From NCBI RefSeq assembly GCF_024437735.1, contig NZ_JANFQO010000006.1, positions 1 to 64,000 on the forward strand: a DNA stretch of 64,000 bases. Reading direction: 5' to 3'. Source of the stretch: Tahibacter harae (GTDB lineage Bacteria > Pseudomonadota > Gammaproteobacteria > Xanthomonadales > Rhodanobacteraceae). Shown in pieces: positions 40,856-47,345 of the stretch (position 1 is the first letter of the stretch; each line of letters begins with the position of its first letter). The position numbers and the translations under genes are program-made. The notes beneath the pieces were generated by a model. That model was not told where the DNA came from and searched no databases. It worked only from the letters and a program-made list of their open reading frames with translations.

Positions 40856-41200
40856 CGCATGCAGGTACCGCGCGCGGTGGCCAGGCACCGGCTGGGGTCG
40901 CGATGGTTTGCGCCGGGAGCGGTGCCGGTGCTGGCGGGAGATTGCAAATTCACTTGAATTTTCAATGTTGAACTCGCGCCGAAAAACCTGATGTTGCGCT
41001 GGAGGCCGGCGTCGCCCCTCACCCAACCCTCTCCCCCAGGCGCGTGAACGCGCTTGGGGGAGAGGGCTTTTCCTGGTGCATCGGCGGGGCGAGGGCGATT
41101 GGGAACGGTTGTGGCATGTTTGCGCAGCTGTCTTCGCGCTGCGGCTGCGGATTGGTGCGGCAGCCGTGCAGCGTGGCTGCGATTCTCCGCCATCGTCGGC
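40856..41200. other. Intergenic region with one palindromic repeat
   Basis: About 345 bp lie between the convergent secreted-repeat gene and thrC. The only structure is the palindrome at 41027-41066. Its position between two convergent stops would allow it to act as a bidirectional terminator. No coding potential seen. Confidence 0.55.
41027..41066. repeat. Dispersed palindrome, CCCTCTCCCCCA family
   Basis: Arms CCCTCTCCCCCA-GG-CGCG and CGCG-CT-TGGGGGAGAGGG pair across a TGAA loop, with one internal 2-nt mismatch. It is preceded by CCCCTCACCCAAC, as is the copy at 37515. It is the sixth recognisable member of this family in the window. Confidence 0.85.
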
Positions 41201-42496
41201 TCACATCCGCTGCAGTTCTCCCGCAAACGCCGCATAGTCCGCCGCCAGCGGTTCGGCCCGGGCCGGGCGTTGCAGCAGTTCGGCCAGGGCCGGCGGCACG
41301 TCCACAGTGCGGCCGATCAGCGGTTCGACGATGCTTTCAAACTTGGCAGGATGCGCCGTCGCCACTGCGCACCAGTCGCCATCGCGGCCTTCGCCACGCA
41401 GCGTTTCCAGCACATGTACCGCGGTAGCGGTATGCGGGCAGAACACTTCGCCGTGATCGCGGCAGCGGCGGGCGATGGTGGCGCGGATGGCGGCATCGTC
41501 CACGCGCACGGCGCGGAAGGCGCTGCGCAGCGCGGCGGCGTCCGGATACAGCCAGCGCAGACGCTCGAAATTGCTGGGCGCGCCCACGTCCATGGCATTG
41601 GCCAGGGTCGCCACGCTGGCGCGCGGCGTGTAGTCGGCGCCGGCGAAGAACTGCGGCAGCACGTCGTTGGCATTGGTGGCGAGCACGATTTCGCCCAGCG
41701 GCAGGCCCAGCGCGCGCGCCAGAACCGCGGCGAAGGCGTTGCCGAGATTGCCTGTCGGTATGACGAAGTTCAGCACCTCGCCGTGGCGGCGCCAGTGCTG
41801 CAAGGACGCCGCGGCGTAATAGCTCATCTGCGGCAGCAGCCGGCCCAGGCTGATGCTGTTGGCGGAACTCAGCGGCACGGCCTGCTGCAGCGTGGCATCG
41901 TTCAGCGCCTGCTTGACCAGGGCCTGGCAGTCGTCGAAGGAGCCGGCCACGCGGTAACTGTGGATATTGCCGCCGAAGCAGCCGAGCTGGTGCGCCTGGC
42001 GCGGCGATACGCGGCCGTCGGGATAGAGCACGGCCACACGCAGCCCGGGCTGACGATGGAACGCCGCTGCGACGGCGGCGCCGGTGTCGCCGGACGTGGC
42101 TACGACGATGGTCAGCGGCTGCTGCCGTGCGCGCTGCAGGCGGCTGAGGCAGGCGGCGAGGAAGCGCGCGCCGAAATCCTTGAACGCGGCGGTAGGGCCG
42201 TGCACCAGTTCCAGCACGGAGTCCCGCGGCGTGGCCAGTGCGCGCAGCGGTGCGGGGAAGTCGAAGGCTTCGGCGCAGATGGCATCCAGCTCGGCCTCCA
42301 GCGCGTCGCCGGCGAAGAACGGCTGCAGCAGGCGTGCGGCAATGGCGGGCAGGGTGTCGCGGCCGGCGAAGTCTTCGGGTTTCAGCGCCGGCAGGTTCTG
42401 CGGCACGTACAGGCCGCCGTCGGGCGCGAGACCGGCGGCTATCGCGGCGCTGAGCCCGGCGGGTGGCGCCTTGCCGCGGGTGCTGACGAAGATCAT
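41201..42496 (-). CDS. thrC: Threonine synthase
   Basis: This 431-residue PLP enzyme converts O-phosphohomoserine to threonine. The PLP-lysine segment is [16 protein letters not shown]. Other signatures are [26 protein letters not shown] and [14 protein letters not shown]. The N-terminus [17 protein letters not shown] is typical of the gammaproteobacterial long form. Its ATG overlaps the thrB stop as ATGA, so translation is coupled. It is the last gene of the thrLABC operon. The palindrome about 135 bp downstream may end transcription. Confidence 0.96.
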
Positions 42497-43416
42497 GCGA
42501 GCACCTCGGCCGCGGGTCCGGCCACCGGAGACAGGAAGGCCTGGCTGGAAAAGCCGGCGGCGGCGAAGGCGGCCTGCATGGCCGGTGCGGCGCGGCTTGC
42601 GCTGGCGGCGTCCTCGAACCAGGCGAATACGCTGGGGCCGGCGCCGGAAATGCTCGCGCCCAGCGCGGCGTGATCCAGCGCGGCCTGCTTGACCGCGGCA
42701 AAGCCCGCGATCAGCGGCGCGCGGCGCGGTTCCACCAGCACGTCGCTGAGGCCGGCGCGCACCAGGGCCGCATCGCCGCGCCAGCAGCCGGCCAGCACCA
42801 GACTGAGGTTGGCGCTCTGCGCGACGAATTCCTTCAGTTCGTAGGCGCCCTGCAAAGCAGCGCGGGCGCGGCGGGTTTCCAGCACCGCATCCGGATGCAC
42901 CAGTACGCAGGTCCATTGCGGGGGCACCGGCACGGCGACGACGTGGTCGGCCGTGGCCAGGACCAGGCCGCCCAGCAGCATGGGGCCTACGTTATCGCCG
43001 TGGCGGCCGCCGCTGGCGACGGCTTCGCCGGTCATGGCATGCGGATACAACTGCGCAGGCGACAGCGGCGCATCGAGCAGCGCATTGGCCGCGACCAGCG
43101 CGGCGACGCAGGAAGCGGCCGAGCCGCCCATGCCCGAGCCCAGCGCAATGCCCTTGTCCAGTTCGATCTCGAAGCCGTAGGGCAGGGCGAGCGCCTCGCG
43201 CAGCGCGATCAGCGCGGCGCCGGCGGTATTGGCTTCGGCCTGCAGCGGCAGGTCCACGGTGCTGCCGCGGATCGCGGCGATGCGCACCGTGGGCTCGGTG
43301 ATGCGCCGCACTGTGGCGCGGTCTCCGGCGCCGGCGATGGAATGGCCGAGGATGTCGAAACCCACGCCGATATTGCCGACCGAGGCCGGCGAGAAAGCAG
43401 TAGCCTCATGCTTCAT
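42493..43416 (-). CDS. thrB: Homoserine kinase
   Basis: This 307-residue GHMP kinase phosphorylates homoserine with ATP. It has the substrate-binding [14 protein letters not shown] near the N-terminus, the GHMP ATP loop [18 protein letters not shown], and the C-terminal [15 protein letters not shown]. The start at 43416 is the family-consistent Met, 1 bp after the thrA stop. It overlaps thrC by 4 nt. The close packing indicates a single transcript from the thr leader. Confidence 0.96.
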
Positions 43417-45931: not shown

Positions 45932-45947
45932 GCTGCCTCCGTTGAGA

Positions 45948-46056
45948 GGCCCCGCCGTCACAGGGATCCGGGTTCTGGCCCGCATCCGTGTTCGGGTGCG
46001 GGGCCGTTTGCGTATGAACCTATTCGCGCACGACTCGCCGCACCACGGTAGTGGTG
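45948..46056 (-). promoter_or_regulatory. Threonine-operon attenuator (mutually exclusive RNA stems)
   Basis: In transcript order there are four pairing segments. Segment 1 is CACCAC (46051-46056, within the leader's Thr codons), which pairs with segment 2 GTGGTG (46041-46046). Segment 2, as GGTGCGG (46038-46044), can instead pair with segment 3 CCGCACC (45995-46001). Segment 3 also belongs to a GC-rich stem (45993-46005 with 45977-45988, 4-nt loop). Segment 3 can further pair GGCCCCGC (45998-46005) with GCGGGGCC (45948-45955), next to the thrA ribosome-binding site. No T-run follows the main stem, so the output may be Rho-dependent or translational. Confidence 0.7.
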
Positions 46057-46136
46057 GTGGTAATGGTACCGCCGCCAATGGACGCTGCCGCCGCAAGGGC
46101 GGTCGCGTTCAGTTCACTGTGCGGGGTCGTGGACAT
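46020..46136 (-). CDS. thrL: thr operon leader peptide
   Basis: This 38-codon frame has the hallmark of a thr leader: residues 24-30 are Thr-Ile-Thr-Thr-Thr-Thr-Thr, followed by VVRRVVRE and TAG. The Escherichia coli leader has a comparable Thr/Ile run. The stop lies 88 bp upstream of thrA. A TTGACA (46168-46173, minus strand) lies 31 nt ahead of the ATG but has no good -10 at the right distance, so the promoter and exact start codon are uncertain. Scarcity of charged tRNA-Thr would stall ribosomes on this run. Confidence 0.85.
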
Positions 46137-46259
46137 GCGGGCCAGTGGAGCGGATGCGGCCCCGTGCTGTCAAGGGCGCAGATGGCATAACGTCCGGGCC
46201 GCGCCGGCACAGGGTCGGCGCGGCTGTGTTTCAAAGTGGAACTGTTGAAAGTGCGGCAG

Positions 46260-47345
46260 TCAGAGCAGCGTTGCCAGACGCGGATAAAGCACCTCGCGGC
46301 GCCAGCCTTCCAGCGCCTCGGGCCACTGGCCGTCGAAGACGTAGGCTTCGAGGTGGCGGCGGGCGCAGAGCAGGCCGTCGGGAATGTCCAGTTCGGCGGC
46401 GATGGCGACCACGGCTTCCTTCATTGCGGCGATGGTGCGCTTCTGCGCCGGGCTGGGCAGCGGGAAGATCGGCGCGAAGTCCATTTCCTCGGGCAGCAGC
46501 GGCGTGGCCAGCTGCAGGAACAATTCCTCGCGCTGCGGCCCGCGCAGGGCGCGCAGGCCCTTGGCGCGCTGGAACAGCTCGTCGGTATCGTGCGGCGGAC
46601 GCAGCACGAATTCGGCGATATGCGCATCGTCGATCAGCCAGGGGCGCGGCTTGTCGATCTGGCGCGCGGTGGCTTCGCGCCACAGCAGCACGCGGCGCAG
46701 CAGGGCCTGCTGCGGGCGGCTCCATTCGGCGGCGCTCTTGAAGCTGCGCTGGGGCTGCGGGTCGCCGTCGCGGCTGCGCGCCTTGGCCAGCAGGCGCTGG
46801 CAGTCCTGCGCATGCCAGTCGCTGCGGCCGCGGGCGCGCAGGCGCGCATCGAGTTCGGCGTGGATGGCGGCGAGGTGGATCACGTCCTGGGCGGCGTAGT
46901 CCAGCTGCTCGGCGCTCAAGGGGCGGCGCAGCCAGTCCGAGCGGGTTTCCGCCTTGGGCAGATCCACGCCGGCGATGGCGGCGACCAGTTTCTGGTAGCT
47001 CAGTCCGGCGCCGTAGCCGCACAGCGCGGCGGCGATCTGGGTGTCGAAGAGCTGGCCCAGGCCGCCGGGTACGGCCTCGGCCAGGGCTTCGAGGTCTTCG
47101 CTGGCGCTGTGCATGACGCAGAGCGTGGCCGGATCGGCCAGGCGCGGCGCCAGGGCGCCTATGCCGCCCAGGGCGAGCGGGTCGAGCAGGGCGATCTCGC
47201 CTTCCAGGTTGACCTGTACCAGGGCCAGGCGCGGATAGAAAGTGTCTATGCGCATGAACTCGGTGTCCAGGCCGACCAGGCGGGCGGCGGGGTGGCGGTT
47301 GAGCAGCTCGGCGGCGGCTTCAGGCTGCGCTATCCATTGGTGCAC
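46260..47345 (-). CDS. rnd: Ribonuclease D
   Basis: This 361-residue 3'-5' exoribonuclease trims tRNA 3' ends. The DEDD exonuclease motifs are present: VGLDTEFMR, HSASEDLEAL and the Tyr-type third motif DYAAQDVIHLA. A helical HRDC-like C-terminus follows (about 210-361, with LCARRHLEAYVF). The length matches proteobacterial RNase D. It lies upstream of the thr leader on the same strand, 123 bp away, and is divergent from the SUMF1-like gene. Confidence 0.93.
   Translation of the reverse strand: MHQWIAQPEAAAELLNRHPAARLVGLDTEFMRIDTFYPRLALVQVNLEGEIALLDPLALGGIGALAPRLADPATLCVMHSASEDLEALAEAVPGGLGQLFDTQIAAALCGYGAGLSYQKLVAAIAGVDLPKAETRSDWLRRPLSAEQLDYAAQDVIHLAAIHAELDARLRARGRSDWHAQDCQRLLAKARSRDGDPQPQRSFKSAAEWSRPQQALLRRVLLWREATARQIDKPRPWLIDDAHIAEFVLRPPHDTDELFQRAKGLRALRGPQREELFLQLATPLLPEEMDFAPIFPLPSPAQKRTIAAMKEAVVAIAAELDIPDGLLCARRHLEAYVFDGQWPEALEGWRREVLYPRLATLL

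Follow-up and report, generated by a model that had tools for sequence, protein, structure and literature searches.

Textbooks present the thr attenuator as an example of control by transcription termination. Our literature search found no paper on a thr leader of the Xanthomonadales; a comparative study of 2004 (Vitreschak and others) that may include Xanthomonas lay outside it. In the erm and cat leaders, hairpins that hide the Shine-Dalgarno (SD) sequence control translation. The available text of PMC1262725 describes SD-hiding hairpins in translational T-boxes before ileS, as well as leader peptides without obvious terminators in cys operons of Actinobacteria and in the LEU element before leuA. 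Leaderless leader peptides of Streptomyces lividans (leuL, trpL, ilvL, metL, and thrL before thrS) are described in the available text of PMC8079986, in which we found no thrA case. Going by these portions of the two sources, Actinobacteria are already known to have leader peptides that are leaderless and leader peptides that lack a terminator. The case presented here was not found in the available text of PMC3766115, PMC3896937, PMC8079986, PMC1262725, PMC2965389 or PMC4833913.

Here, we describe a leader element ahead of the threonine genes of Tahibacter harae, in a stretch of 64,000 nucleotides that was analysed as a whole (the window). On the minus strand, a leader ORF is followed by thrA, thrB and thrC, which make up a thrABC operon (Table 1). 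A preliminary description of this DNA had pointed to a 38-codon frame with Thr-Ile-Thr5 upstream of thrA, and direct reading finds it there: a short ORF rich in codons for the amino acid that the operon makes, as in the classic thr type. On the other side of the leader ORF from thrA lies a ribonuclease D-like gene (46260-47345), which scores 291.2 bits against rnd, slightly below the cut-off of 298.95. Two hairpins flank the region. A perfect 9-bp GC hairpin (GCCGCGCCG...CGGCGCGGC, 46224-46198, minus strand) sits in the stretch that separates the ribonuclease D-like gene from the thr promoter, in a terminator-like position and without a T run, and a strong 18-pair hairpin with the tail CTTTTCC (41027-41066, plus strand) lies ~135 nt past the end of thrC.

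Table 1. Features of the thr leader and operon, in window positions.
Feature	Position	Strand	Basis
-35 element TTGACA, 37 nt ahead of leader ATG	46168..46173	-	TTGAC conserved in relatives
-10-like TCCACT, spacer 18, 7 nt ahead of ATG, poor TATAAT match	46144..46149	-	by eye
Leader ORF, 38 codons, Thr-Ile-Thr5, without SD	46020..46136	-	sequence reading, anti-SD energies
Thr/Ile run; near its end CACCAC (segment 1), partner GTGGTG	46047..46067	-	
Segment 2 GTGGTGCGG (46046-46038, right after Thr run) and 2b GTCGT	46030..46046	-	partner is segment 3
Segment 3 ACGGCCCCGCACC, hub; partners 2, 4, possibly 5	45995..46007	-	swap tests, pair counts
Segment 4 GGATGCGGGCC; 3:4 is the counterpart of the E. 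coli thr leader terminator hairpin, without T run	45977..45987	-	
Segment 4' CCCGGATCC; pairing with 4 excludes 3:4	45964..45972	-	folding, swap tests
Segment 5 GCGGGGCCTC, anti-SD, also complement of segment 3	45946..45955	-	swap tests
Segment 6 GGAGGC, the thrA SD	45935..45940	-	
thrA, bifunctional aspartate kinase/homoserine dehydrogenase I, 837 aa	43418..45931	-	NF006959 1030.4 bits, cut-off 726
thrB, homoserine kinase, start approximate (family match)	42493..43401	-	NF002288 338.4 bits, cut-off 194
thrC, threonine synthase, start approximate	41201..42490	-	TIGR00260 235.4 bits, cut-off 167.1

Homologues of thrA were collected in two sets. In a sample of the window's family (f1), 196 of 197 genomes gave a match, many of them only via the homoserine dehydrogenase half; the second set comprised the best 80 of 229 loci from named genera, among which Tahibacter was the nearest genus, followed by Pseudoxanthomonas, Xanthomonas, Stenotrophomonas, Rudaea and Arenimonas. 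Taking as a Thr-rich leader any short ORF with at least four Thr in eight residues, we found one before thrA or hom at all 80 of the best named-genus loci and at 66 of 69 family-sample loci, over a range from Tahibacter to Xanthomonas. There was no Thr ORF at L010, L022 and L067; the first two have truncated matches or flanks, and L098, on the same contig as L010, has the leader. All 20 loci with a monofunctional homoserine dehydrogenase have it too. The preliminary description had named the lack of a conserved Thr run in relatives as an outcome that would speak against attenuation, and the run is kept. A fixed DNA pattern for the run proved too strict and was found in only 7 of 197 genomes. 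Many genera of the window's family (L073-L092) place the leader ahead of the monofunctional gene and not of the bifunctional thrA, with an equal architecture. Another locus, L160, comes from a record titled Bacillus subtilis SK7B5 and has a Stenotrophomonas-like thrA with its leader, so the record is probably mistitled or based on a contaminated assembly.

Counts of leader features refer to 137 loci, a set that excludes eight family-sample loci duplicating named-genus loci as well as L030, which has a Thr ORF and no TTGAC-spaced ATG; L072 duplicates L023. These leaders have a median of eight Thr codons, the last of which is 30 or 33 nt from the stop in 116 of them. The gap from leader stop to gene spans 82-111 nt, leaving aside L021, where a wrong gene start gives 73. 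Residues outside the Thr run vary, and the order of segment 2, stop, segment 3, segment 4, a GGGNCTC-like segment 5 and the SD recurs recognisably.

The preliminary description had further proposed four segments with mutually exclusive pairings; these are present in the window and recur in the homologues. It had paired GGTGCGG with CCGCACC after the leader stop and assigned the latter to a GC-rich stem as well. CCGCACC (46001-45995) is the exact complement of GGTGCGG (helix 2:3), and its second partner, with one bulge, is GGATGCGG (45987-45980; helix 3:4). Within segment 3, GGCCCCGC (46005-45998) is also exactly complementary to GCGGGGCC (45955-45948; 3:5), which ends 7 nt ahead of GGAGG (45940-45936). 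Two helices, together with the leaderless promoter discussed below, are additions to the earlier list: 4:4', formed by GGATGCGGG with CCCGGATCC, and 5:6, formed by GCCTC with GAGGC around the thrA SD. Both are in the minimum-energy fold. Folding of 45932-46136, which had been proposed as a check, gave a structure more stable than any of 200 dinucleotide shuffles (z -3.31).

For the pairings in relatives, we chose 64 representatives with <80% identity from 131 distinct sequences and applied a swap test, in which the pairing of each segment with its own partner was compared with its pairing with the partners of other loci. The z values were -9.4 for 2:3, -9.4 for 3:4, -9.5 for 4:4', -6.2 for 3:5, -4.8 for 5:6 and -3.4 for 1:2. 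Nine of ten control pairs stayed within |z| 1.6, and the tenth, 4':5, was worse than swapped (+4.8). This last pair, weaker with its own partner within groups as well (+3.0), behaves as if selected against. When partners were permuted only within groups defined by locus number and genus code, which removes shared ancestry only in part, 2:3 (-6.0), 3:4 (-4.1), 4:4' (-4.6) and 5:6 (-4.6) each gave 0 of 2000 permutations. The value for 1:2 was -1.9, and that for 3:5 was -2.1 (33/2000), no better than the control 2:6 at -2.3 (22/2000). We dropped a 4:5 pairing, which would have left the SD free, because its z was -0.1 overall and +0.7 within groups.

The thrA and hom loci were also tested separately. 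In the thrA set, z was -4.9 for 2:3, -3.7 for 3:4, -4.3 for 4:4', -2.9 for 5:6 (2/2000), -3.4 for 1:2 and -1.4 for 3:5, with -2.3 for the control pair 2:4'. The hom set (n=16) gave -3.8 for 2:3, -4.5 for 5:6, -2.4 for 4:4' (14/2000), -1.7 for 3:4 (113/2000), -1.6 for 3:5 and +1.7 for 1:2. The pairing of the Thr codons with GTGGTG that the preliminary description had included (1:2) is supported in the thrA loci and not in the hom loci. Its pairing of segment 3 with sequence ahead of the thrA ribosome-binding site (3:5) stands as an exact complementarity and is the least supported of the set; it is kept only as a candidate.

An alignment of 38 thrA loci including that of the window (A1; the hom group, the g25 group and five odd rows were excluded) has 92.1% standard pairs in 2:3, with covariation of 0.087 against 0.060 in shuffled alignments (2/500) and at most 0.055 in slid ones. 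The figures for 3:4 are 93.2% and 0.045, against 0.019 shuffled (1/500) and at most 0.013 slid; the pairs of both helices are mostly near-invariant, and double changes are few (4 and 3 cells). Pair counts for 5:6 and 3:5 were left out because MAFFT misaligned segment 5. RNAalifold on A1 returned a small hairpin inside segment 2 and part of 3:4, since competing helices cannot coexist in a single consensus. Compensated changes can be seen by eye in L019, where segments 2, 3 and 4 read GGAGCGG, CCGCTCC and GGAAGCGG, and in L149, where the SD hairpin is CCTT/AAGG. Absence of covarying stems in relatives, the other outcome that had been held to count against the attenuator, was thus not observed, with 2:3, 3:4, 4:4' and 5:6 all supported. 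The exclusive helices 2:3 and 3:4 of a classic attenuator have been kept by evolution, 3:4 weakly so in the hom subset, and so has 5:6, a hairpin hiding the SD of the controlled gene as in translational attenuators.

A covariance model (R1) was built from the 38 loci of A1, the window's among them, and applied at E<=0.001. It has a single match in this genome, at the leader locus. Over the order, it has one match each in 119 of 299 genomes (53 in f1, 64 in f2, one in f4 and one in f12), and over a sample of the class it matches 3 of 274 genomes, namely this one and two of f2. R1 also finds hom loci absent from the model, immediately upstream of the gene (e.g. G003, G013 and G022). Its counts are lower bounds, as G010 (the same as L084) was missed at E 0.001 although its leader could be read. 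The recurrence of the Thr-rich ORF and the segments in homologues, together with the single match of the model in the genome, places the observation beyond chance. That the leader is conserved and yet not controlled by threonine, as might hold for a constitutive 5' structure in which the Thr codons occur by chance, strikes us as very improbable: the Thr runs are kept though other residues differ widely, and a threonine-pathway gene follows in all loci examined, including the 20 of 20 with monofunctional homoserine dehydrogenase. Those loci were found via the gene, but R1, whose matches are found without recourse to it, gives one match per genome.

Other families were surveyed in 30 genomes of the order, in which a Thr leader was sought within 450 nt before thrA. 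A Thr leader without a U run precedes thrA in all nine f2 genomes and in one of three f10 genomes; at L230, where the contig ends early, the automated scan missed the leader and direct reading found it. In one of three f9 genomes, the Thr leader comes with T8, and TTGAC is absent at the spacing described below. No Thr leader was found within 450 nt in one f3, three f4, one f6, two f7, six f8 and one f11 genome; one f8 match is truncated, and the sole f5 locus is without upstream sequence.

Rfam at its gathering thresholds has no match in the window. RF00506, the E. coli thr leader, scores 13.6 bits at the locus, against a cut-off of 55 for membership, and none of the 299 genomes of the order has a match above that cut-off. 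At E<=0.001, 88 of 299 genomes match, and in the genome studied here both such matches are on other contigs. We discarded these sub-cut-off matches as evidence, as 4 of 14 control genomes were matched as well.

The preliminary description had also noted that the final stem is not followed by a T run. This is correct for the window; it had been presented as unusual, and it turns out to be the rule across two families, in 137 of 137 loci. Between 20 nt past the leader stop and the gene, 21 loci reach a T run of 3 and the other 116 stay below that, and L117, L025 and L086 have five T within some 8-nt window. The U run that follows the 3:4 hairpin of the classic thr type is thus missing. Leaders with T runs do occur elsewhere, before ilv genes in f2 (L277, T6), f5 (L210, T9) and f7 (L258, T7) and before a his gene in f9 (L197, T7). 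In the loci scanned, a His-rich leader precedes 1 of 25 hisG genes, and an Ile/Leu/Val-rich leader 2 of 23 ilvC and 1 of 23 acetolactate synthase genes; none of the hisG, ilvC and acetolactate synthase loci scanned in the window's own family f1 has one. A clade-wide lack of intrinsic terminators was considered, and the f2 genome G197 speaks against it, having a thr leader without a U run yet an ilv leader with T6. In 20 kb of the window, hairpins followed by T runs are not in excess (5 sites versus 8.3 in shuffles). Termination at 3:4 by an intrinsic mechanism is unlikely because there is no T run and because 4:4' and 5:6, which are transcribed later, have nevertheless been kept by selection. 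We consider it highly probable that intrinsic termination is absent.

The leader lacks an SD, and its promoter is placed where it would make the transcript leaderless. With the leader stop as the only reference, TTGAC lies 34-39 nt upstream of an in-frame ATG in 135 of 137 loci (298 in-frame ATGs in total); elsewhere in these stretches, 7 of 1110 ATGs have TTGAC so spaced; some earlier readings had chosen the leader ATG with the help of TTGAC, which the count from the stop codon does not. By eye, a -10-like motif lies 6-8 nt ahead of the ATG in relatives; it reads TnnACT in several of the thrA groups, where it is a poor TATAAT, and TAnnGT in the hom group, whereas the Xanthomonas group has a hexamer rich in T and C. 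The mean anti-SD energy upstream of the leader ATG is -1.75 kcal/mol, against -1.68 in shuffled sequence and -7.54 before thrA or hom, and an energy of -6 is reached before thrA or hom in 131 of 137 loci versus 3 of 137 before the leader (L146, L162 and L091); in this comparison and that with other ATGs, L104, L147 and L149 enter with a wrongly placed leader ATG. From the promoter spacing and the lack of a leader SD, the transcript probably starts at or adjoining the A of the leader AUG, and the message would be leaderless. An AUG start, no SD and a spacing that puts +1 at the AUG are all found computationally, with a poor -10 motif. Transcription starting downstream of the leader frame had been named as a further outcome against the attenuator, and the conserved promoter points instead to the leader ATG. 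In the ilv leaders L277, L210 and L258 and the his leader L197, too, TTGAC stands 35-37 nt ahead of the ATG, and hairpins with T6-T9 come after, so that leaderless leader peptides may be widespread in the order.

We have little doubt that the element is an attenuator, and the amino-acid attenuation logic of the preliminary description survives in the Thr-rich ORF and the exclusive, conserved helices. The reading we favour, as a probable one, is a ribosome-mediated attenuator of thrABC whose leader peptide senses charged threonyl-tRNA, with the outcome read after 3:4 and most likely expressed in the translation of thrA or hom. Transcription would start at or adjoining the leader AUG, as the promoter spacing suggests, and the leader would be translated without an SD. 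A ribosome slowed in the Thr run would cover segment 1, so that segment 2 could pair with 3 and leave 4 free for 4'; one reaching the stop codon would keep 2 off 3, and 3 could then pair with 4 (or 5). These occupancy steps come from folding models and homology with the E. coli thr leader, and the helices from comparison. Since 4' and 5:6 lie beyond the former terminator, the choice would be read later and not by intrinsic termination at 3:4. Given the SD hairpin, it would most likely act on the initiation of thrA (or hom) translation; Rho could be a partner or an alternative, and Rho termination or decay of untranslated message may follow. Starvation would be expected to raise expression. The earlier suggestion of translational or Rho-dependent control survives as well. 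That translation is the main output we regard as somewhat better supported than its opposite.

Folding with a sliding ribosome (equilibrium, pseudoknot-free models that assume a footprint edge 13 nt from the A site) made 2:3 strongest in the window (12.6-13.0 expected pairs) when the A site was 45-36 nt from the stop and so within the Thr run; 2:3 collapsed there between 33 and 24 nt. In all six group means, 2:3 peaks at 42-36 nt and drops at 33-24. Comparing the stalled with the read-through state, 5:6 is more closed (>0.1) when stalled in 22 of 64 representatives, with the reverse in 3 and no clear change in 39. At equilibrium, the 2:3 state has the SD closed by 5:6, and the SD opens once 3 can pair with 5; in the window and the Xan group, it opens only with segment 2 covered. 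Mean SD opening shifts clearly only in these two (Xan group 0.01 to about 0.2-0.3, window 0.04 to 0.28-0.35), with little change in the other thrA groups and none in the hom group, whose 5:6 helix is present throughout. Taken literally, the equilibrium fold would shut thrA in starvation, which is opposite to the expected derepression. Either kinetics, a pseudoknot, Rho or decay of the RNA transmits the signal, or the switch does not run in the textbook direction.

The expected direction does follow if control is by transcriptional attenuation. With ample threonine, 3:4 would form and leave 4' free for a stop dependent on Rho or on the hairpin only, and in starvation 2:3 and 4:4' would hide that stretch, with 5:6 merely keeping thrA untranslated for long enough. 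The spacing from the last Thr codon to segment 2 resembles that of the E. coli leader, and 4' looks C-rich by eye. We nevertheless judge this unlikely, because T runs do not exceed 3 in any of the 137 loci, the read-through state of the Xan group has 4' mostly paired with 4 and not free, and the covariation of 5:6 would be explained only loosely. The opening of the SD in the window could alternatively be taken at face value, as in Erm-like translational attenuation, in which 2:3, 4:4' and 5:6 would hide the SD at rest and a ribosome at the last Thr codons would cover segment 2, allow 3:5 and open the SD. When the A site in the window moves from -36 to -24 nt relative to the stop, the expected pairs fall from 12.6 to 0.1 for 2:3 and climb from 1.8 to 8.6 for 3:5, and SD opening grows from 0.04 to 0.28. 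The mean of the Xan group is similar, and the last Thr codon is close to this tipping point. Most Thr codons, however, lie upstream of it, where 2:3 peaks; 3:5 is weak within groups (33/2000, against 22/2000 for the control 2:6); and SD opening is near-constant in other groups and unchanged in the hom group. An Erm-like course appears quite improbable.

Returning to the ribosome-mediated attenuator with a late readout, we suggest tentatively, as an interpretation for and against which the case is nearly balanced, that two gammaproteobacterial families turned a terminator-based thr attenuator into a leaderless device acting at the level of translation, with loss of the U run and with 2:3, 3:4, 4:4' and 5:6 now serving as a relay that links the position of the ribosome to the SD of thrA or hom. 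As two families keep the thr sensor and have lost the terminator, one regulatory RNA can be compared with and without its U run. The locus is in addition a probable gammaproteobacterial example of a leaderless leader peptide, and R1 detects the element where Rfam's model does not.

Among known systems, the E. coli thr leader (RF00506) shares a Thr/Ile-rich leader peptide ahead of thrA, and its segments 2, 3 and 4 can be aligned with those described here (gGUGCGG - CCCGCACC - UGCGGGC). It differs in that our element has no A/U tract and no U run, has the extra helices 4:4' and 5:6, and is predicted to be leaderless. The SD-hiding systems, that is the erm and cat leaders and, in the available text on them, the ileS T-boxes, likewise cover the SD of the controlled gene with a hairpin, whereas the effector here is predicted to be the decoding of Thr codons. 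With the cys and LEU leaders of Actinobacteria, the element has in common an amino-acid-rich leader and no evident intrinsic terminator, but the series 2:3/3:4/4:4'/5:6 is not described in the available text of PMC1262725. The leaderless peptides of Actinobacteria, as the available text of PMC8079986 presents them, come from transcripts that begin at the start codon of the leader ORF, some without a U-rich terminator; they belong to another phylum and to other genes, and the transcription start of our element is a predicted one.
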